From a virus, in IMG/VR virus record IMGVR_UViG_3300042184_000003, positions 1 through 41,591 of that record: 41,591 bases of DNA; one strand, 5' to 3'. Below, piece by piece: positions 22,134 through 30,530 of the stretch. Made by a program: the position numbers and the translations under genes. Every line of letters starts with the position of its first letter. Within the stretch, counting starts at the first letter, position 1. The notes beneath the pieces were generated by a model, which was not told where the DNA came from, did not search any database, and saw nothing but the letters and a program-made list of their open reading frames with translations.

Positions 22134-24788
22134 TTATGCAAATGCAAATTCAGATTTGAGGATTTCACGGATGTCCAGAGTTCCCTTGGCTGGGATCTCA
22201 GGCATCTTTTCAAGTTGGGTCGCGTGGAGTTGCTCCATGAACTGCTCACGGAAGTCCTCCAGTACATCGTTGTTCTCGTAGGTCTCGACCATCGTCTCTC
22301 GGACAGCGCGGAACATCGCCCCGGCTTTCGCTGGGATCGTCCCAAAGGAATCGTGAATCAGCGCGAAGAAGGTAATGCCGTAGTTCTCAGCGGAATGAAC
22401 CACTGTCTTCCGAAGGTGGCTCCCGTCTTGCGAGTGGACGAAGTTCGGGGAAATGCCCGACTCCTGTTTACGTGCATCAATCTTGTCGCTGTCTCGCACC
22501 GTCACAGTTGACTGGATGCGAATGTCACCGAGGAACATCAGGTCGATCCGTCGAGTTTCGGGGATCATGTACTCTTGCCACACAGGGAACCCATCAGGCG
22601 TGCACCAGTAGACTGGCATGGCCTTCTTCAGGATCTCCTTGGACTTCTTACACTTGACCTCAGAGCTGAGTAGCTTGGCTGCCTTCTGAAGCCAGTTCAT
22701 TGCTTCCACAGCGGCGACCACTACAACACTCACAGAGTCCCAGATGAGGCCAGCCATGAAGCGGCTCGCTTGACCGGGGTCGGTGAACATGGAGCCCTCA
22801 CCGTTGTCGATGGCTTTCTTTACGATGTCTTCACGAACCTGATCGGAGAACCCGTAGGCTTTCGATCCGTAGGCCAGTGTCATCACTGATCGCTTGGTAA
22901 CCTTTCGGGACATCCCGTAGGCCAGCCACGCCATAGCGAGGGTTTTTGTTCCGAGGACTTTTCGATCTCGTATCTCACCGGTCTTGTCATCAGCGATAGT
23001 TTCGATGGAGTCATCAGAACCAGTGGCTGCGAGAACGATGAGAGCCGCTTCGACTTCATCGGAGACCAGCTTGTAGATGTCTTGTACGGTTTCGCTTGGA
23101 AGAAGGTTGACCGCCCGACCGCCACGTTCATCGCGAAGCATCGCAGAGAAGTGTTGAATGCCGGAGCAACTCCCATCGAAAGCAATGGGTAAAGCTGAAA
23201 CATGGTTGACGCCATCGCGCTTAACTCCTTCCCACTCAAAGCAGAACGCTAAGAAACAGAATGGTGAATCCAGCCCCATCCAATCGATGTTGTTCAGCGG
23301 GTCTCTGGCAGTCGCAAGGATCATCTCCTCGTTGTCCATCACCCACTGTTTGCGTTCCTCAAAGGTGACCTTATCGACCCCGGCAGTGTTCGCCCCATGG
23401 ATCATCAGCCACTGAATCCCCTCCTCACCAACCGGCTCACCTTGGGCAGCGCAGAGCACGCCTTTGGTCATATCGTTGGACTGAGGGTTGAACGCAGGGA
23501 TCGCATAGACCCGGCCACGCCAATCCAAGTTGTACGGGAAGTAGATCGCATCGAAGTCAGCGAACTTGTTGGCTTGCTCAAGAGAGAACTCATAGGAGAG
23601 TCGTCGAGAGACCCTTGCAGCATCTTTGCGATATACCGCTGAGGCTGCCTTCTTCCATTCCTTCAGAGCCACCTCGTTGGTGTCGATGTCGTGAGGCTTC
23701 ACAGGGAGGTCTTCACGTTCCAACGTAGGGAACTCTTTGATTGGCACGTTGGCCCACTCCATGACCGTGTTGGCCACGTCGAGAACCCTCGTGTTGATGC
23801 GCCATGCGGTGTTCTGAGCGAGGTTCACAGCCTTGTAAACTTCAGGCATGTGAACATCACGGTAACGCTTGAGGGCCCGCTTAGAGGGCACCCGGATGAA
23901 CGTCACAGGCTTGCGACCCTTGGCCCAGTAGCCGCCACTGTGAGTCCCGACCCAAGGTTTAGGCTGGACAACGCAGGGCTGATACCGTGGGAAGATCCCA
24001 GAGAGGATGTAGGCCCGAGACTGGAGCTTTTCGGCCCACTCAGGTTTCAAGTAGACATACTCACCGTCCAGCTTCTTGATGCCCTTGTGCTCCCGGCGCA
24101 CCTCAATCAGTTGGGTCGATTCAATCAGCAACTCCAGCATACGAATGCCCATGTGATAGCGGACATCTGCATCCATCGAGTTCCAGTCGATCCACTCACT
24201 GGTCAGCTTCCCATCATCGACCATTTGCTGTTCGATGCGGGCCATGTACTCCACCTTGTAGGTGTTGCCATTGCGCTGAGCCAATGCCTTCTTAAGGTGC
24301 TTCTGGTAGTAGGCCTGTTCGGCTGCCCTTACTCGACCATAACGAGCCTCCTCTTCGAGGGCCCCACCGATGCTCACAGCCATCTCAGTGATGGTCGGAG
24401 CGCCATTGCGTTGAGCGATGCGGTTCATGGTCCAGCGGATGGTCACCGAAGCGATCACCTCAGGGTTCATCTGTTGGAACGCCCCGATGGCCACATGCTT
24501 GCGACGGACCTTGGTGACTTGATGGTCAATCCAGTTCTTGATCGCCTCAGTGAGCAGCGGAACGAGAGTCCCGAGGAGTGGCTTGGCCACTTGGTTCATC
24601 GAGAACTCTCCACGATCCATTGAGCGCTCAAGGGCCCTATTGAATCGTTCCTCACCCAAGGTATAGGCCTCATGTTCGAGCTTGAGTTGCTCGGCTGCGA
24701 GGGCTGGACCGTAGATGGCTGCGAGGGAATCGAAGGCGTGTGTCGAGGAGATGTCGCTAAAGTCGTGCTTCTTTGGAGCTTCGAGCAT
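22134..24788 (-). CDS. 1: Single-subunit phage RNA polymerase gp1
   Basis: An 884-residue protein (T7 883). The catalytic residues of T7 (D537, K631, Y639, H811, D812) have clear counterparts one position later, in FDGSCSGIQHF, KVTKRSVMTLAYGSK and ALIHDSFGT. The C-terminus FAFA is identical. In the specificity loop (RRIDLMFLGDIRIQ), R746, R756 and Q758 are kept but N748 is Asp (about residue 749), as in T3. It transcribes all genes behind the ten phage promoters. ATG 24788 has only a weak ribosome binding site (AAGTGA). Unlike in T7, a phage promoter lies upstream, at 24874. Confidence 0.98.
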   Translation of the reverse strand: MLEAPKKHDFSDISSTHAFDSLAAIYGPALAAEQLKLEHEAYTLGEERFNRALERSMDRGEFSMNQVAKPLLGTLVPLLTEAIKNWIDHQVTKVRRKHVAIGAFQQMNPEVIASVTIRWTMNRIAQRNGAPTITEMAVSIGGALEEEARYGRVRAAEQAYYQKHLKKALAQRNGNTYKVEYMARIEQQMVDDGKLTSEWIDWNSMDADVRYHMGIRMLELLIESTQLIEVRREHKGIKKLDGEYVYLKPEWAEKLQSRAYILSGIFPRYQPCVVQPKPWVGTHSGGYWAKGRKPVTFIRVPSKRALKRYRDVHMPEVYKAVNLAQNTAWRINTRVLDVANTVMEWANVPIKEFPTLEREDLPVKPHDIDTNEVALKEWKKAASAVYRKDAARVSRRLSYEFSLEQANKFADFDAIYFPYNLDWRGRVYAIPAFNPQSNDMTKGVLCAAQGEPVGEEGIQWLMIHGANTAGVDKVTFEERKQWVMDNEEMILATARDPLNNIDWMGLDSPFCFLAFCFEWEGVKRDGVNHVSALPIAFDGSCSGIQHFSAMLRDERGGRAVNLLPSETVQDIYKLVSDEVEAALIVLAATGSDDSIETIADDKTGEIRDRKVLGTKTLAMAWLAYGMSRKVTKRSVMTLAYGSKAYGFSDQVREDIVKKAIDNGEGSMFTDPGQASRFMAGLIWDSVSVVVVAAVEAMNWLQKAAKLLSSEVKCKKSKEILKKAMPVYWCTPDGFPVWQEYMIPETRRIDLMFLGDIRIQSTVTVRDSDKIDARKQESGISPNFVHSQDGSHLRKTVVHSAENYGITFFALIHDSFGTIPAKAGAMFRAVRETMVETYENNDVLEDFREQFMEQLHATQLEKMPEIPAKGTLDIREILKSEFAFA
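22930..22948 (-). promoter_or_regulatory. Promoter-like sequence inside the RNAP gene
   Basis: The minus strand reads CAAAAACCCTCGCTATG then GGC, matching the consensus at 15 of 17 positions (C for T at -17, G for A at -6), with predicted +1 at 22931. It codes for the segment TKTLAMA of the polymerase. The gene 1.1-like and ligase genes lie downstream, where T7 has phi1.1 and phi1.3 promoters. Activity is uncertain because -6 is normally invariant here. Confidence 0.4.
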
Positions 24789-24873: not shown

Positions 24874-24898
24874 GTAGCCACAGTGAGGGTTTTTAAAT
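24874..24898 (-). promoter_or_regulatory. Phage RNAP promoter upstream of the RNAP gene
   Basis: Exact class II consensus (G at -3) with +1 at 24878, about 90 nt before the RNAP start and 6 bp after the stop of the preceding early gene. It would let the polymerase drive its own gene. Confidence 0.95.
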
Positions 24899-24904
24899 TG
24901 AGGC

Positions 24905-25312
24905 TTACTTCAGGACTTCGATTCGGCCATGAACGTCGGAGAGCTTGTAGACAAACTCTTTGATCTCGCAGGTATCGTACCAAGCGCCAACGGCCTTTCT
25001 GATTGCCATCTCAAGGCCTTGGTTATACTTGAAGGCAGCCTTACAACCAGCGAGGCCAAACCAGCGAGGCCTGTTCGCATAGGCCATCTCAGCAGTATCA
25101 CGGGCGGCATAAGGCGGGTATGGTCGAGGCGTTGCGTAGGACGTTTGGGTAATCGTGAGGAGCTGATCCGTCACACTGTAGGCCAGGGTTTCAACGTGCC
25201 GCCCACAGGGCCCTTCACCCAGCTTGAAGACCACCTCAGTGACCTTCATGAGGCCGTAACGCTCAGGCTCAGGGAACGAGGCGCGAAGCTTGATCTGCTT
25301 GACGTGGGTCAT
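24905..25312 (-). CDS. Early hypothetical protein, last gene before RNAP
   Basis: A 135-residue protein I do not recognise. It has a Tyr/Pro/Ala segment (TPRPYPPYAARDTAEMAY) flanked by beta-type stretches (VTEVVFKLGEG, IKEFVYKLSD) and six-odd aromatic residues in the C-terminal half. The start ATG directly follows the stop of the previous gene (TGAATG). It lies in the early block read by host RNAP, where T7-like phages keep host-takeover and anti-defence genes. Confidence 0.8.
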   Translation of the reverse strand: MTHVKQIKLRASFPEPERYGLMKVTEVVFKLGEGPCGRHVETLAYSVTDQLLTITQTSYATPRPYPPYAARDTAEMAYANRPRWFGLAGCKAAFKYNQGLEMAIRKAVGAWYDTCEIKEFVYKLSDVHGRIEVLK

Positions 25313-25507
25313 TCAGAAGCCTCCCCGGTAGCAGCGAGTGAAGTCGCCTTGGTCGCTGTAGCGCAGCTTCGAGTGCTGGCGCATCGCTTGCCCTGAGAAA
25401 CGCAGCTCAGGCACTTGCGGACCATTCTTCACAGCCCTGAGGACTTTTTGAGCACGAATGTACTCGTCAGTGAGACCCTTGCGAGCCGGTTGGTAGTTCG
25501 TGTGCAT
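25313..25507 (-). CDS. Small basic early protein
   Basis: A 64-residue protein rich in Arg, Lys and Gln (RKGLTDEYIRAQKVLRAVKN). ATG 25507 overlaps the dioxygenase stop (TGATG); a GTG one codon earlier is the alternative start. There is only a distant GGAG site, so expression probably depends on coupling. No family recognised. Confidence 0.72.
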   Translation of the reverse strand: MHTNYQPARKGLTDEYIRAQKVLRAVKNGPQVPELRFSGQAMRQHSKLRYSDQGDFTRCYRGGF

Positions 25508-26211
25508 CACTTAACTTCACTCCAATGAACAAGTAGGTGCCGCTCGCCTTCGGTGACGGGCAGGCCATAGTGCAGGGTTGTTTTGCCCTTGAAGAACATC
25601 GCCCAACCGGGCAGGTTCTGAGGGACTTCGATGGGCTCCACAAAGGGCCCTTGATGAACCATCGTGCCACCGCCCTCGTGGTCATCATTGAGAGCCACAA
25701 CGAGCGTCACATCCGAGTCCCGGTCAGTGTGCCAATGGCCTCTGGGAGTCTCTGAGGGGCTGTACAGGGCTGCTTGCACGCTGGTCAGCACATCCGGCTC
25801 AAGGTTGAACAGAACCTTCGCATAGGCCAGCCCCGCGTCAGCCCAGAAGGACCGGAAGACCTCATAGAGAACCTTGTGATCGTTCTGAAAGACCACCTCA
25901 GGGATCTGAGCCTCTAAGGGCTCCTCAAGGTTGGGCTCATGCTCGAACTTGGCGACCTCGTGCCTGATGTCCTTGCAATAGCCCGGATGCAGGTAGGCGA
26001 TGCTGTAGACGCCCGGTGCATGACAGACCACGCAATCATCAAGGAACTTTTGCCAAGAGCTGGACTCAGAGAAGTCGCTCGGTGCAATCCCGCCGTTGTC
26101 CTCAGCGTGCTTGGCCATCTCTTTGAGGGTCTCAAGGTGCTCTCTGAGGAGCGGGTGATACTTGTCCACACTGGCGATCCCGGTGGTGGCTTTGGTCAGC
26201 ACAGTGCTCAT
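25507..26211 (-). CDS. 2-oxoglutarate/Fe(II)-dependent dioxygenase-like early protein
   Basis: A 234-residue protein. The C-terminal half has the double-stranded beta-helix signature: H161-T-D163 (GHWHTDRDSDVTLVVALND), then EGGGTMV, the distal H214 (TTLHYGLPV) and R224 (EGERHLLVHW) for 2-oxoglutarate. All four expected residues are present, so an active enzyme of the prolyl-4-hydroxylase-like superfamily is likely. The N-terminal 100 residues are unassigned. Substrate unknown: protein, nucleic acid or a small molecule. It overlaps the genes on both sides (ATGA and TGATG). No T7 counterpart. Confidence 0.85.
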   Translation of the reverse strand: MSTVLTKATTGIASVDKYHPLLREHLETLKEMAKHAEDNGGIAPSDFSESSSWQKFLDDCVVCHAPGVYSIAYLHPGYCKDIRHEVAKFEHEPNLEEPLEAQIPEVVFQNDHKVLYEVFRSFWADAGLAYAKVLFNLEPDVLTSVQAALYSPSETPRGHWHTDRDSDVTLVVALNDDHEGGGTMVHQGPFVEPIEVPQNLPGWAMFFKGKTTLHYGLPVTEGERHLLVHWSEVK

Positions 26212-26690
26212 GCAAAGATCCCCGTGAGGTCCCTGAAGACACTGAATACAGCACCACCAGCGGCACCAAGAGCTGCTATTGTCAAGTGCTCGACCAGTGA
26301 TTTACCTCTTGATTTCAAAGGAATATATTCACCAGTGCTATTGCTTTCCGATTCAGCCTGTGAGTCCGCCCGTCGGGCTGTGATCAACGGATGCTCAAAA
26401 CGTGTATATAATTCGCTCAGCAACATTGAGAAGGCTGCCTCGGAGTCTCTCGGCCAGTGGAACGCAGCCTGTAGAATCAGGTGACCGACCTCTTGCCCAT
26501 CACCAGCGAGGAACTGGAAGGTATAGCCCCCAGAGCGATCACAAGGAATCACGTTCACACGAAGCCAGCGCTGCCCATGCCGGTTCTCGACATAGTGAGC
26601 GTAACCGTCAGACATACAGTCAGCCATTGCTCTCAAGAGGCGCTTAGCGAAGGACTCAGAGACAAAGTTAGTGCGGTTGAAGAGTTGCAT
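26208..26690 (-). CDS. Early hypothetical protein with C-terminal hydrophobic helix
   Basis: A 160-residue protein with no family I recognise. Residues 1-110 look globular (AMADCMSDGYAHYVE, CDRSGGYTFQFLAGDGQE). Residues about 134-151 (HLTIAALGAAGGAVFSVF) form a Gly/Ala hydrophobic helix that could anchor it in membrane. The segment coding for residues about 90-135 (26.28-26.42 kb) is more AT-rich than its surroundings. ATG 26690 follows AAGGGAA, and the stop overlaps the dioxygenase start (ATGA). Confidence 0.78.
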   Translation of the reverse strand: MQLFNRTNFVSESFAKRLLRAMADCMSDGYAHYVENRHGQRWLRVNVIPCDRSGGYTFQFLAGDGQEVGHLILQAAFHWPRDSEAAFSMLLSELYTRFEHPLITARRADSQAESESNSTGEYIPLKSRGKSLVEHLTIAALGAAGGAVFSVFRDLTGIFA

Positions 26691-26736
26691 ACTATTCCCT
26701 TACGGATGTTGGTGAGGTAGGACAGTGCGCCCAGCG

Positions 26737-26762
26737 GAGAACCCTCAGACGTGAAGGCTCTC
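26737..26762 (-). promoter_or_regulatory. Early-region intergenic hairpin
   Basis: On the minus strand, GAGAGCCTT pairs over nine positions with AGGGTTCTC (two G-T pairs) around an 8-nt loop. It lies in the 80-bp gap between the lipoprotein gene and the 160-residue ORF. It shares the GCCTTCA...GAGGGT pattern with the hairpin at 28085. A likely RNase III-type processing or stabilising site. Confidence 0.55.
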
Positions 26763-26770
26763 GACTTGGA

Positions 26771-26926
26771 TCACTTGCTTGCAGGAGTCTCAGAGGCCAC
26801 TGGACAGGTCACAGAGTCAACCATGAAGGTTGCATGAGGCGCGGTCACAACGTTGGTCTGACAGCCCGACAGAGCCAGCGAGAAGGCCAAGCACAGTGCA
26901 GCAGCGGTGAGGTTATGTACGGACAT
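26771..26926 (-). CDS. Small early lipoprotein
   Basis: A 51-residue protein with ATG 26926 and AAGGAAACC upstream. It has a textbook lipoprotein signal: short n-region (MSVHN), hydrophobic core (LTAAALCLAFSLA) and lipobox L-S-G-C with Cys22 as the lipidated residue, followed by Gln. The mature part is only about 30 residues (QTNVVTAPH...SETPASK), with one further Cys. Gln after the Cys favours the outer membrane. Early phage lipoproteins such as T5 Llp block receptors against superinfection; that role here is an inference. Confidence 0.72.
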   Translation of the reverse strand: MSVHNLTAAALCLAFSLALSGCQTNVVTAPHATFMVDSVTCPVASETPASK

Positions 26927-26956
26927 TGAGAGGTTTCCTTATGGTATGAACAGAGA

Positions 26957-26998
26957 GTTGTTCCCAATGGGCCCTGTGTGAGAAGGCCCATCAGTGAA
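26957..26998 (-). promoter_or_regulatory. Early-region hairpin element, copy 2
   Basis: On the minus strand, ATGGGCC pairs perfectly with GGCCCAT around an 11-nt loop (TTCTCACACAG). It lies just upstream of the lipoprotein gene and is similar over about 40 bases to the element at 28085-28126, including CACTG before and GGGAAC after the stem. Confidence 0.65.
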
Positions 26999-27002
26999 TC
27001 GC

Positions 27003-27101
27003 TCACAGTGGATACGTGTAGTGGAACGTGAAGAAGCCTATGAGACACCCAATGGCAGCCGCCACGCAGAACACAGCTGACAGGATGATGGCGAACTTCA
27101 C
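27003..27101 (-). CDS. 32-residue membrane micropeptide
   Basis: A GTG start at 27101, 8 bases behind AAGGAG and overlapping the previous stop (GTGA). The product is one hydrophobic helix (KFAIILSAVFCVAAAIGCLI) with a short aromatic tail (GFFTFHYTYPL). The good ribosome binding site, the coupling and the clean membrane profile support it. Function unknown. Confidence 0.6.
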   Translation of the reverse strand: MKFAIILSAVFCVAAAIGCLIGFFTFHYTYPL

Positions 27102-27421
27102 GATTGCGGCTCCTTAGGCTCCACAGTGGTGACGTGACCCTTGGTGTTCATGATGTTGAAGTGCAGGCCCTGAGACACTGCGACCCCGGAAGGCTGGAAC
27201 CATGCGATGTCGTACTTGGCAGATCGAGGCGCATCGACCCGGCAGGTCCAGCAGTACAGGCCGCCATGCTCCTTGACGTGACGCTTGATGAGGTCCGCAC
27301 CGGCCATCCTTGAGAGTTCGTTAAGAACCTCTTGGCGGGTCTCACCAACGACCCAGTGGTACGCAGTGGAGCCGAAGTAGTGGAATGGTTTCTCTTCAGG
27401 AGTAGCTGTAGGAGTGCTCAT
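27098..27421 (-). CDS. Early hypothetical protein
   Basis: A 107-residue protein of unknown family. It has a Pro/Thr-rich N-terminus (MSTPTATPEEKPF), a helical section (GETRQEVLNELSRMAG), a C-x2-C pair (LYCWTCRVDAP) and strands near the C-terminus. Start and stop both overlap the neighbouring frames by 4 bases, as is common in this early block. Confidence 0.8.
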   Translation of the reverse strand: MSTPTATPEEKPFHYFGSTAYHWVVGETRQEVLNELSRMAGADLIKRHVKEHGGLYCWTCRVDAPRSAKYDIAWFQPSGVAVSQGLHFNIMNTKGHVTTVEPKEPQS

Positions 27422-27645
27422 AGTTGCTTTGCCTCGATGAGTGTGGAGAGGTGCATGTAGAACAGCCGGCCTTGGCCCAGTGAGCTGTTACGAGAGCCCT
27501 TGAAGCGTACAGCGTCAGCCCAGTCCCTGAGTTCACCCGTTTGGCTCATGGAGAGCGTGTGAGGGTCATTCCCGAAGGTGATGCCTTGGGCCTTGAGGGA
27601 CTCAATGACGAACTTGAGGACCGCATCGCGTTGAGGAGTGTTCAT
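27418..27645 (-). CDS. Early hypothetical protein
   Basis: A 75-residue protein. I choose ATG 27645, which overlaps the preceding stop as ATGA; an ATG at 27660 would add five residues inside the upstream gene. It holds a helical N-terminus (QRDAVLKFVIESLKAQG) and a polar C-terminal half. No family recognised. Confidence 0.75.
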   Translation of the reverse strand: MNTPQRDAVLKFVIESLKAQGITFGNDPHTLSMSQTGELRDWADAVRFKGSRNSSLGQGRLFYMHLSTLIEAKQL

Positions 27646-28058
27646 TCTGGCACCGCCCATGCTTCGATGATCAGGCGTGCAGCTTCCTTGGTGATGCAGG
27701 TGTTCTGGCTTGGTGACCAGTACATGACACCCTTAGGAGCGTCCTCATAGGTGCAATCGGTGACCAGACGACCAACCATCTGCCTAACGTCGATGCGGTC
27801 CCATTGGGCCAGCTTGGTGCAGTCGTTGAGATACTTATCGCCGCCCTTGTAGGACTTGATCATCTCAGCCCATTGCTTGGCAGAGAAGGAGGCACGAACA
27901 GCAGCCATGACAGCCGGTGTGCAGAACTGTTCGTAGTACATGCAGTGACGATCGTAACCGTCCATGTCCTTGGCGCAGTTCATGTACCAATAGTGGGTCT
28001 TGAAGGTCTTCCCGTTGATCTCACAGGTTTCGGTAGTGCGTTGGTTTGGATAGGTCAT
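27642..28058 (-). CDS. Cys-rich early hypothetical protein
   Basis: A 138-residue protein with seven Cys (residues 12, 28, 39, 46, 80, 102, 121), unusual for a short cytoplasmic phage protein, and many aromatic residues (THYWYMNCAK, RHCMYYEQFC). There is no signal peptide and the spacing does not match a zinc finger I know. ATG 28058 follows TGGGAG. It opens the second early sub-block behind the hairpin at 28085. Function unknown. Confidence 0.8.
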   Translation of the reverse strand: MTYPNQRTTETCEINGKTFKTHYWYMNCAKDMDGYDRHCMYYEQFCTPAVMAAVRASFSAKQWAEMIKSYKGGDKYLNDCTKLAQWDRIDVRQMVGRLVTDCTYEDAPKGVMYWSPSQNTCITKEAARLIIEAWAVPE

Positions 28059-28084
28059 GGTGAATGCTCCCAGGCATTATGTGT

Positions 28085-28126
28085 GATGGTTCCCCGATGG
28101 ACCCTCAATGAAGGCCCAGCAGTGGA
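28085..28126 (-). promoter_or_regulatory. Early-region hairpin element, copy 1
   Basis: On the minus strand, TGGGCC pairs with GGTCCA (one G-T pair) around TTCATTGAG. It lies in the 71-bp gap between the 98-residue and 138-residue genes. It is related in sequence and position to the element at 26957-26998. A probable RNase III-type site or mRNA stabiliser. Confidence 0.62.
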
Positions 28127-28129
28127 TAG

Positions 28130-28426
28130 TCACGGTTTGATTTGGTCAGGCTCATAGACCGATGCAGAGCACAGCTTGATGAGGTCACGCAGTTCACGCA
28201 CTGAGGCGACCCTGAAGATGATCCCAGTAGTGTCCTCTACAAGCCAGTAGTGGCCTTCCCAGCCGCCCCAGTGCCCTACCGTGTAGCTCAGCTCCCTATG
28301 GGTCACCTTGAGGAACTTAGCGGGCTTCTGGAGGGTCAGAGCGAACTTAGAGAGACCCACAGCCTCCACAACGGAGTTGATGGCAGGCATTGCGAGGATT
28401 GCAGCGGTCAAGTCATGGATACGCAT
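28130..28426 (-). CDS. Early hypothetical protein
   Basis: A 98-residue protein. ATG 28426 has AAGGAG, which overlaps the previous stop codon. The N-terminus is hydrophobic-helical (LTAAILAMPAINSVVEAVGL) without a clear membrane span, and the middle has aromatic strands (YTVGHWGGWEGHYWLVED). No family recognised. Confidence 0.78.
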   Translation of the reverse strand: MRIHDLTAAILAMPAINSVVEAVGLSKFALTLQKPAKFLKVTHRELSYTVGHWGGWEGHYWLVEDTTGIIFRVASVRELRDLIKLCSASVYEPDQIKP

Positions 28427-28432
28427 GGTGCG

Positions 28433-28681
28433 TTACTCCTTGTCAGCGTTGAGGGCTTCGAGCAGGTCAGCCTTAGTGCGGTGCCATACGGCCTCAAGGA
28501 CCCTACAGCGCGTCAGAGTGCTATCCACCTCGTTGCGCAGCTTCTCCCACATAGGATGTGCAGCGGAGCCCTCAAAGCGCCCAAAGAGGACCTTAGCGGC
28601 ACGGTGTTCACCCTCAGCCGTGGCTATGCGTTGGTCGAGGTCAGCCAGCTCCTTACGGAGTCGATCAGTGCGATGGCTCAT
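28433..28681 (-). CDS. Early coiled-coil protein
   Basis: An 82-residue, highly charged, almost fully helical protein (RLRKELADLDQRIATAEGEH) that probably forms a coiled coil. Its start overlaps the stop of the first early gene (ATGA). Function unknown; size and position suit a host-protein-binding factor, but nothing proves it. Confidence 0.8.
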   Translation of the reverse strand: MSHRTDRLRKELADLDQRIATAEGEHRAAKVLFGRFEGSAAHPMWEKLRNEVDSTLTRCRVLEAVWHRTKADLLEALNADKE

Positions 28682-28887
28682 GGTTGTACCTTCATGCGGA
28701 TCATGTCGGATTCCCAGCGAGGCTCAATTACCGGCTTGAAGGCTGGCCAGATGTCGTGAGCCTTGCCATAAGTGTTGATCTCAGCAACATAACGCTTAGC
28801 TGATTTCTTAGTGCGAAACAGTTGGGGCTCAAAGTGAGGGCCTATTGAGCCCGTCACGATGTAGCAGTCACCAGTGCGATTGTCCAT
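28678..28887 (-). CDS. First early gene, hypothetical
   Basis: A 69-residue protein at the head of the early transcript, where T7 has gene 0.3 (Ocr). It is not Ocr-like: it is basic (RTKKSAKRY, MIRMKVQP) rather than strongly acidic. I start at ATG 28887, 5-7 bases behind GGTGA; an ATG at 28902 lies upstream of that site. No family recognised. Confidence 0.75.
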   Translation of the reverse strand: MDNRTGDCYIVTGSIGPHFEPQLFRTKKSAKRYVAEINTYGKAHDIWPAFKPVIEPRWESDMIRMKVQP

Positions 28888-28972
28888 GGTGTCACCTATC
28901 ATGTGTTTGGGTTTACAGTCGTAGGCTCTCTTTGTACTGCAAGTGAGCCCACTGCTTTAAATCCTTTCACTG

Positions 28973-29021
28973 CCACGCACCGGCCTCAACTCTTCCCAGA
29001 GGATGCTGTTTCAGTGCGTGG
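28973..29021 (-). promoter_or_regulatory. Leader hairpin of the early transcript
   Basis: CCACGCAC (29021-29014) pairs perfectly with GTGCGTGG (28980-28973) on the minus strand. A further short pair (CTCT/AGAG-type, 29002-28984) lies in the loop. It lies between boxA and the first early gene, like the T7 R0.3 processing site. Confidence 0.6.
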
Positions 29022-29034
29022 TGTTACGATCCGA

Positions 29035-29048
29035 GTTGTTAAAGAGCG
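29035..29048 (-). promoter_or_regulatory. boxA antitermination element
   Basis: The minus strand reads CGCTCTTTAACAAC. This equals the rrn boxA core (GCTCTTTAACAA) and the same motif in the T7 early leader after promoter A3. It lies downstream of the host-type promoters and upstream of the first early gene, as in T7. Confidence 0.8.
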
Positions 29049-29179
29049 TAAGGGTGCCGTTTAGGCCGTGTCTATCAGCCAATTCGTTGCCCTTTGGAAA
29101 CAAGCTGGAGACTTTGAACTCTCCCAGACCACCTACCCATGACATCTGTTCGGTGACCGTGTTGCTTGTCGATGGAGCC

Positions 29180-29208
29180 ATTTAATCGTGAATCAGTGTT
29201 GCTGTCAA
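29180..29208 (-). promoter_or_regulatory. Host sigma70-like promoter P2 for early genes
   Basis: A perfect -35 TTGACA (29208-29203), 17-bp spacer and a -10 of TTAAAT (29185-29180, four of six). It is oriented toward the early genes and lies upstream of boxA. Confidence 0.6.
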
Positions 29209-29351
29209 GCGTTTTGTTGCTGCCCTATGTGGTGATCTTTTCGACTCCCTTAGTGACTCTTGGCACCCGTAGGATCGCAAGTCAGGAGCTACTAACATCA
29301 CCACCAACTCAGAGACACCCGTTAGGCCGTGTTTCCTTGTTGATGTGGCTC

Positions 29352-29379
29352 ATTCTATAGACTTGAGACCATGAGTCAA
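29352..29379 (-). promoter_or_regulatory. Host sigma70-like promoter P1 for early genes
   Basis: -35 TTGACT (29379-29374), 16-bp spacer, -10 TAGAAT (29357-29352); each hexamer matches five of six, and the CTATAG run before the -10 recalls T7 A1. A weaker TTGACT lies at 29467-29462 with no good -10. Confidence 0.72.
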
Positions 29380-29399
29380 CCTGTTTATTCATCCAGTAT

Positions 29400-30205
29400 C
29401 TGAGAGACCCTTATAGGTGAACGAACCGGGAGCGCACGCGATAGCCTATAGACCCTCATTGAGTCAATACTGTATGGCTGACCAGTAGTATCATAGAGAT
29501 ACCCTTAGGAGGCCCTTAAAGATGCCCTAAGAGCCTTGAGTTAGAGCCTTGCAATCATAGAATCAACGATCACCCATAACCCTATACATTGGCCTACCTG
29601 ATAGCCTAACGAGTCCTATAGAGGCTCTCAGGGCCTTCCAGAGGGTCTTACCGTTGGTCTGGTGGCTACCATTAGGAGCGCTGCATTAAGAGGTCATTAG
29701 GGCCCTTAGAGGTGACCATTAGGAGGCCCTTATAGAGTCATTGCTCTAATGACCAAACAGATAGGGACACACAGACTACTGTATGAATCCACAGGTTGAC
29801 TATCAGCCCCTCATAGCCCATCATTAAGTCACCTCAACGGTAACCCAAAGGAGCCCACCATGTAGTCATCATCGAGTCACCTCATCGTATCCCTCAAGAG
29901 ATCATTGAGATGCCCTATGGGGATGAGAGGCCCTTAGGATGGCTGAGAGAGGCCCTACGGGGGGATTCGTCGGTGTTTGTCCATGAGAGGTGCCCCTTCA
30001 GATTTTTCTATCAGATTCTCATTAGGACTTCCTTGAGGATCAGTATCAGCCCTCATTAGGATATCGTCCAGTACCGTCTATCAGGTGACTCATGGGAGAC
30101 CCTAAGAGCCTTCTGAGGGACCATTAGGGTGTCCTTAGAGTTGTTGCTCTAATGGCTCAAGGAGGTAGAGTGGAACGATACCGAACTTGAGCGTGTTGGC
30201 CTTGG
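29400..30205. other. Gene-free concatemer-junction region, probable site of the terminal repeat
   Basis: No convincing coding frame or ribosome binding site is seen on either strand. The stretch is full of short motifs of the type GGCCCTTA, CATTAGG and CCTAAGAG. GGCCCTTA occurs in the same orientation at about 29511, 29701, 29725 and 29929, and a 14-mer TTAGGAGGCCCTTA occurs at 29505 and 29719. Two inverted repeats (GGTCATTAG/CTAATGACC at about 29692-29754 and CCATTAG/CTAATGG at about 30121-30155) flank the middle. T7 and T3 carry short-repeat arrays next to their terminal repeats, and this region lies exactly between gene 19.5 and the early promoters. A terminal repeat collapsed by assembly would lie here; its borders cannot be read. 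Confidence 0.65.
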
Positions 30206-30382
30206 CTATTCACCGCAGCCTCCTACAGCGACACACACGAGGGTCTCAACCCAGCCCATTACGCCTGAGCCTGAAGTGACCCCGAAGGTGACCAGAAGGA
30301 CACCGATGAGCTTGTAGGTTGACCGGGAGAGAGCCAAGCGCTTGATCACAAGGATGAGCACGGTGGCTTTCTCTCTGGTCAT
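30206..30382 (-). CDS. 19.5: gp19.5-like small membrane protein
   Basis: A 58-residue protein in the gene 19.5 position. It starts at ATG 30382 with AGAGGAGAC upstream. It has a basic N-terminus (MTREKATVLILVIKRLALSR), then a hydrophobic stretch resembling T7 gp19.5 (YKLIGVLLVTFGVTSGSG against YRFLVVLCAALGYAS), and ends VETLVCVAVGGCGE against LESVVCSILTCSD. It is the last gene before the right-end repeats; its function in T7 is not established. Confidence 0.82.
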   Translation of the reverse strand: MTREKATVLILVIKRLALSRSTYKLIGVLLVTFGVTSGSGVMGWVETLVCVAVGGCGE

Positions 30383-30505
30383 GGTTACTTGTCTCCTCTA
30401 ATGATGATAATCCTTAATCAGGGTCCGTCAATCATCCTTCGACTGACATGATGCTCATGATCCCGAAGGTTGTCTTTAAGGTAGATCCTATAAGACCCCC
30501 CTACG

Positions 30506-30530
30506 GTAGCCATAGTGAGGGTTTTTAAAT
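30506..30530 (-). promoter_or_regulatory. Phage RNAP promoter near the right end (phiOR-like)
   Basis: Exact consensus with A at -3 and +1 at 30510. It lies between terminase and gene 19.5 and reads across the concatemer junction, as phiOR does in T7, where it also serves replication and packaging. Confidence 0.94.

Follow-up and report, generated by a model that had tools for sequence, protein, structure and literature searches.

A predicted Fe(II)/2-oxoglutarate oxygenase of the lysyl hydroxylase type ahead of the RNA polymerase gene in T7-like phages of Pseudomonas

The gene at positions 25507–26211 (minus strand) of the 41,591-base virus record analyzed here—referred to as the window—encodes a protein of 234 aa, which is predicted with high confidence to be a functional Fe(II)/2-oxoglutarate (2OG) oxygenase. 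The HxD...H triad, the 2OG-binding basic residue, and the double-stranded beta-helix that characterize this superfamily are all present, and the protein very probably belongs to a subfamily of the lysyl hydroxylase (LH) type known from the PLOD enzymes. We tentatively propose that, early in infection, it hydroxylates a host protein on a basic side chain. The same record encodes a T7-type RNA polymerase (RNAP), a DNA polymerase, a primase/helicase, a head–tail adaptor, a capsid protein, a tail protein, an internal virion protein, and a terminase.

The oxygenase frame runs on the minus strand from an ATG start at 26211 to a TGA stop at 25507; on the plus strand, the same frame contains stops and is not open. 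Overlaps of 4 nt join the gene to both flanking ORFs: the stop of the upstream ORF (160 aa, 26208–26690, minus) overlaps the oxygenase start within ATGA, and the GTG start of the downstream ORF (65 aa, 25313–25510, minus) overlaps the oxygenase stop within GTGA. These two neighbors belong to phrog_8679 and phrog_19243, respectively, both of which are families without assigned function. The gene for the single-subunit T7-type RNAP (884 aa, 22134–24788, minus; phrog_414, E=0) lies 718 bp downstream of the oxygenase gene, in agreement with a preliminary description of this DNA that had placed the oxygenase in the early block before the RNAP and between ORFs of no assigned function. Directly before the RNAP gene, an ORF of 135 aa (24905–25312, minus) is related to the T3 gene 1.05 protein (PF25755, E=1.8e-20). 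In T3, gene 1.05 presumably follows gene 1—the RNAP gene—as judged by its number, and its place would differ from that in the present genome.

Promoters of the gh-1 type for the phage RNAP occur 11 times in the window, all on the minus strand, with 0 expected by chance. One of them (24877–24895, minus) matches with 0 mismatches and separates the early block from the RNAP gene. The block at 24905–28902, which holds the oxygenase gene, contains no gh-1-type promoter; the nearest ones are those at 24877 and at 30509. The latter is located after the terminase gene and could also read into the oxygenase block. A scan for sigma-70 promoters yielded 5 sites against 3.0 expected, which is near chance and was not used as evidence. 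Judged by the position of the gene, early transcription is likely. The stretch of about 1.5 kb that separates the terminase gene from the first early ORF (28950–30500) is free of long ORFs on the minus strand and carries many short-word repeats like 'agggcctc' and 'taatgag'; it probably represents the genome-end region.

The assignment to the LH type is carried by the predicted fold. An AlphaFold2 model calculated from an alignment of 53 sequences reaches a pLDDT of 94.7 and a pTM of 0.91, and it contains the double-stranded beta-helix for which the preliminary description had suggested a structure prediction. In Foldseek, ranks 1–15 are all LH domains—of mimivirus L230 and human LH3—with E values from 5e-10 to 1.5e-8. 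LH domains also occupy VIA ranks 1–12 (Z 20.4–23.3, rmsd 1.7–2.7, 183–196 aligned residues within a model range of 1–233), with the model residues 1–233 being placed on LH3 521–738. The next VIA families are OGFOD1 (15.8), a PKHD-type oxygenase (15.5), and the P4Hs and PiuC (15.0). A profile of the 53 members leads to the same families, matching LH3 at E=7.4e-16 and L230 at 1.4e-10, with the next family at 0.3. Two 2OG oxygenases from a T4-like cyanophage served as controls in the profile comparison, and their first match is PiuC or P4H, not LH. TET-like chains appear by profile at E=0.71 over 33 residues and no stronger, and among the 50 VIA matches listed, there is no TET or AlkB chain.

On the level of family databases, the window protein matches phrog_61 at E=1.6e-50 across residues 1–232. 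Its match to PF13640 (1e-4) stays below the Pfam cut-off, a search of NCBIfam gave nothing near a cut-off, and phrog_2297 ('DNA endonuclease') is matched weakly (4.7e-8, residues 160–232). PF25238 (OGFOD2-like) is found in 17/18 members at E<=0.1, covering residues 54–91 of the window protein below the cut-off. A PADLOC match named '2OG' (6.9e-8) was considered as evidence for a defense role and rejected, as the underlying model is a generic CRISPR-associated one. The N-terminal 100 residues, previously described as unassigned, correspond in the alignment to the helices and strands that open the LH domain—the part of the protein in which PF25238 is also matched—and, hence, do not form a separate module of their own. 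In LH3, two short helices and the first strands precede the barrel (PMC6082870), to which the N-terminal part of the phage protein corresponds. The preliminary description is hereby retained in its overall reading, a T7-like phage with a conserved Fe(II)/2OG oxygenase among its early-block genes, while its unassigned N terminus is given up.

By homology, Fe(II) is bound by H161 and D163 of the HxD motif H161–T162–D163 (codons at 25723–25731, minus) and by H214 (25570–25572, minus). R224 (25540–25542, minus) is the counterpart of LH3 Arg729 and L230 Arg887, which contact the 2OG carboxylate, and Y150 (25762–25764, minus) that of LH3 Tyr656 and L230 Tyr814 in the 2OG pocket. All of these residues are identical in 53/53 full-length sequences. 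This bears out the complete site of H161, D163, H214, and R224 that had been read from the window sequence alone, as well as the retention of the H-D-H triad in relatives, broken copies notwithstanding. The 53 sequences consist of the window protein and 52 loci, the most divergent of which shares 29% identity with it; excluded from the set were partial ORFs, near-duplicates (similarity ratio >0.985), and phage-collection loci, and the broken copies of phi15, phiPstE, phiPstEGF, and phiGM22-3 (frameshift) stand outside this count. Besides the cofactor residues, N94, E97, E105, Q146, W160, S166, T169, and the GGGT motif at 180–183 are invariant. Three of these—N94, E97, and E105—are located in an acidic loop encoded by codons 86–105 (25897–25956, minus), which replaces the gating loop of LH3. 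Compared with ten relatives, the window gene has dN/dS ratios of 0.10–0.23, and four further oxygenase pairs give 0.07–0.25: the oxygenase gene is under purifying selection.

With the LH domains of PLOD enzymes, like human LH3 and mimivirus L230, the phage protein shares the fold over its full length, the HxD...H triad, the arginine and tyrosine of the 2OG pocket, the GGG motif, and the N-terminal helices. Unlike PLOD enzymes, it bears no glycosyltransferase domains, its 234 aa being LH domain throughout. Both LH3 and L230 are described to dimerize via a leucine (LH3 Leu715, L230 Leu873), and LH3 to bear a pocket cysteine (Cys691) and a gating loop with the substrate-mimicking Arg599 (PMC5802723, PMC6082870). 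None of these three elements is kept in the phage family. At the two candidate positions for the dimer leucine, a leucine is present in 0/53 (position 210) and 1/53 (position 211) sequences; Thr183 after the GGG replaces the cysteine in 53/53; and the loop 86–105 is shorter than the gating loop, acidic (on average 5.6 acidic and 0.74 basic residues), and without a conserved arginine, with any arginine found in 13/53 rows. With the dimer leucine gone, the phage enzyme may be a monomer. Hence, the phage family is predicted to work like an LH domain, yet it is not classed as a collagen lysyl hydroxylase. Prolyl hydroxylases (P4H, PHD2/EGLN, and Pseudomonas P4H/PPHD) have the superfamily, core fold, and cofactor residues in common with the phage protein (Z 13.6–15.0) but lie 5–8 Z units beyond the LH domains and reach E=0.3 by profile at best.

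Phage 2OG oxygenases of phrog_61, many of them from cyanophages, are known and widely annotated, and their similarity to human EGLN3 has been described before (PMC12774648). The window protein is a clear match to this family; unlike it, the two tested cyanophage members are closer to PiuC or P4H than to LH. The Pseudomonas branch of phrog_61 is a new variant inside a known phage 2OG-oxygenase family, and what is newly added here is its lysyl-hydroxylase-type assignment, the divergent lid, its spread, and its losses. A literature search, covering few subscription papers and preprints, found no study of the function of this gene.

A tblastn search of 50,697 phage records returned 281 matches at E<=1, of which 191 contain a place covering at least 80% of the protein. 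Named Pseudomonas phages likewise number 191 among the 281—a count separate from that of coverage—and one record belongs to a Stenotrophomonas phage. No Escherichia phage is named among the 281 matching records, though T7 records are part of the searched collection, so the earlier statement that T7 has nothing like this gene holds at the tblastn level. A profile search of viral contigs identified 62 loci, and 72,556 plasmids gave 0 matches. In bacterial genomes, matches are rare: 3/298 Pseudomonas genomes, in all three of which the gene adjoins a T7-type RNAP, and 3/398 Pseudomonadota genomes, consisting of P. rubra again and two weak partial matches (E 9e-10 and 3.5e-9). A host origin of the gene is not supported by these counts; the oxygenase gene is a phage gene, spread over T7-like lineages, prophages, and one siphovirus.

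Two of the three matching Pseudomonas genomes also carry a tyrosine-integrase gene near the oxygenase. The T7-like genomes in a Pseudomonas rubra contig (L010, 665–9891) and in a further Pseudomonas genome (L091, 3847–5313) appear to be integrated; the order in P. rubra is a bacA-like host gene, the tyrosine integrase (PF00589, 4.2e-12), the oxygenase, and the T7-type RNAP. Integrase relatives adjoin the oxygenase in the viral contigs L009, L033, L034, L035, L036, L038, and L080 as well.

Across 79 surveyed loci, a T7-type RNAP lies downstream of the oxygenase in 45, a DNA primase in 19, and neither in 15. The gene tree mostly tracks this context, with 8 label changes compared with a shuffled mean of 27.2, the long deep branches being uncertain. 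Other surroundings are found in the siphovirus Itty13, where the oxygenase is part of a recombination region with RdgC, NinB, and an HNH endonuclease; in the Warsawvirus 3MF5, where an anti-restriction gene (ORF04) precedes the oxygenase (ORF07) by a few genes; and in a distant cyanophage relative with an ssDNA-binding protein and a helicase alongside. The upstream neighbor phrog_8679 was detected by tblastn in 35/45 loci with a T7-type RNAP and in 0/34 without one, some loci ending at contig edges. Its C-terminal half is poorly conserved, its membrane-like tail is not kept, and its predicted fold (pLDDT 79.2) has no PDB match at E<=0.001. A two-gene module with phrog_8679 as a fixed partner or substrate was rejected, since other upstream families replace it.

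Some phages have lost the gene. In phi15 (L016, 3472–3888, ORF8), a deletion relative to Stalingrad (L026) joins oxygenase residues 1–102 to the tail end of a downstream gene. Two phages of P. syringae pv. tomato from one accession series are also affected: in phiPstEGF (L022, 2963–3067), about 35 oxygenase residues are left and most of the gene is lost, and in phiPstE (L081, 2537–3600), an insertion with duplication stops the frame before the arginine, with phiPst2111 retaining a 705-bp ORF. The frameshift in phiGM22-3 is possibly a sequencing error, and gh-1 has no gene listed before its RNAP. The broken copies, together with the situation in gh-1, imply that phages can do without the enzyme on some hosts.

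How the enzyme might serve the phage can be sketched as follows. The host RNAP would transcribe the gene early in infection; in the protein, H161, D163, and H214 would hold Fe(II), and R224 and Y150 would hold 2OG. The acidic loop with N94, E97, and E105 may then close over the site and favor a basic side chain, with lysine as the likeliest one, so that O2 and 2OG would be spent on hydroxylating a basic residue of a host protein. Such a modification might adjust or switch off a host function or a defense, and a host-dependent benefit would allow some phages to lose the gene. The preliminary description had raised a host protein, modified bases, and a defense as possible targets; a protein is the probable substrate, as the closest fold relatives—LH3, L230, OGFOD1, and P4H—modify proteins, and a basic target is suggested by the acidic lid; both are suggestions, as enzymes acting on metabolites and nucleic acids have the same core fold. 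For an early, host-directed role speak the position before the RNAP in 45/79 loci and the anti-restriction gene of 3MF5. Against the proposed chain of events speaks the absence of the leucine, cysteine, and arginine that LH3 has at its dimer contact, in its pocket, and in its gating loop. Taken as a whole, the chain—an early, acidic-lid, LH-type oxygenase hydroxylating a basic residue of a host protein—stays a tentative proposal, and its narrower form, in which the single-domain LH relative of Pseudomonas phages hydroxylates lysines of host proteins early as a means of takeover or counter-defense, is doubtful. We know of no lysine hydroxylation of a host protein by T7-like phages.

The residue that is modified might also be one other than lysine, for example, a proline on a host translation factor or ribosomal protein, by which the phage enzyme would copy or compete with PPHD, the prolyl hydroxylase of the host. 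The translation machinery is a frequent target of such enzymes, with PPHD hydroxylating EF-Tu (PMC4543633), and this counts for a non-lysine target, as does the core fold common to P4H, PHD2, P. putida P4H bound to EF-Tu, OGFOD1, and Tpa1 (Z 13.6–15.8). Since the LH domains are nearer by 5–8 Z units and far nearer by profile, such a hydroxylase is nevertheless unlikely. The structural neighbors PiuC, PolD, HalB, and BesD (Z 13.7–15.0) extend the range of possible substrates to small molecules—a free amino acid, a peptide, or a metabolite—or to a shift of the 2OG/succinate balance of the host. HalB and BesD bind lysine as the free amino acid, and their proximity, together with that of PiuC, makes a small-molecule substrate conceivable. 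It is quite unlikely, however, given that LH domains are clearly nearer and that the annotated loci have no metabolic gene beside the oxygenase.

Gene context bears on two further substrates. The loci with a DNA primase instead of an RNAP next to the oxygenase (19/79) could reflect a replication-linked role, and the contexts as a whole fit a role in early takeover or counter-defense but also a replication-linked one. A protein of the phage itself, like the product of the upstream ORF or the primase, might then be the target, for which the 4-nt overlaps with both neighbors and the primase as next gene can be cited; we regard this as improbable, because no neighbor is common to all contexts and the upstream family, with its poorly conserved C-terminal half, occurs in 35/79 loci. 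DNA, RNA, or nucleotides as substrate would agree with the adjoining primase, the recombination genes of Itty13, the ssDNA-binding protein and helicase of the distant cyanophage relative, and the weak match to phrog_2297. The nearest matches by fold and profile act on proteins, however, and TET-like chains are as distant as described above, which renders a nucleic acid substrate distinctly improbable. Finally, catalysis might have been lost, with the protein acting by binding only. Whereas the broken copies in four named phages could be taken in this direction, the invariance of the metal and 2OG residues in 53/53 intact copies and the dN/dS values of 0.07–0.25 make this reading very improbable.

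Takeover of the host by early proteins is classically illustrated by T7-like phages, in which the early enzyme known to modify proteins is a kinase. With the conserved early oxygenase being found in phages that grow on laboratory P. putida, its target is directly testable. A relative with 88.5% identity is encoded by Pseudomonas phage vB_PpuP-Kompost-2, against which prophage P1 of P. putida PaW85 is reported to give 1000-fold protection (PMC12894663). The assignment also extends to bacterial viruses an LH-type domain that is familiar mostly from animal collagen.

In addition, it calls for a correction of annotations, as the gene is named 'glycosyltransferase', 'prolyl 4-hydroxylase', 'hydroxylase', or 'hypothetical protein' in GenBank. 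The label 'glycosyltransferase' covers the oxygenase gene in the records H4, H6, H10, H86, and H98 and came probably from the PLOD enzymes, which combine both domains. In phi15, ORF7 carries the label 'virion structural protein'. For phi-2 of P. fluorescens SBW25 (L082, 4442–5161), the annotated 121-aa SBWP25_0008 apparently corresponds to the C-terminal half of a relative of the oxygenase; in contig L072, the corresponding oxygenase frame is open from about 4442 and encodes 239 aa.
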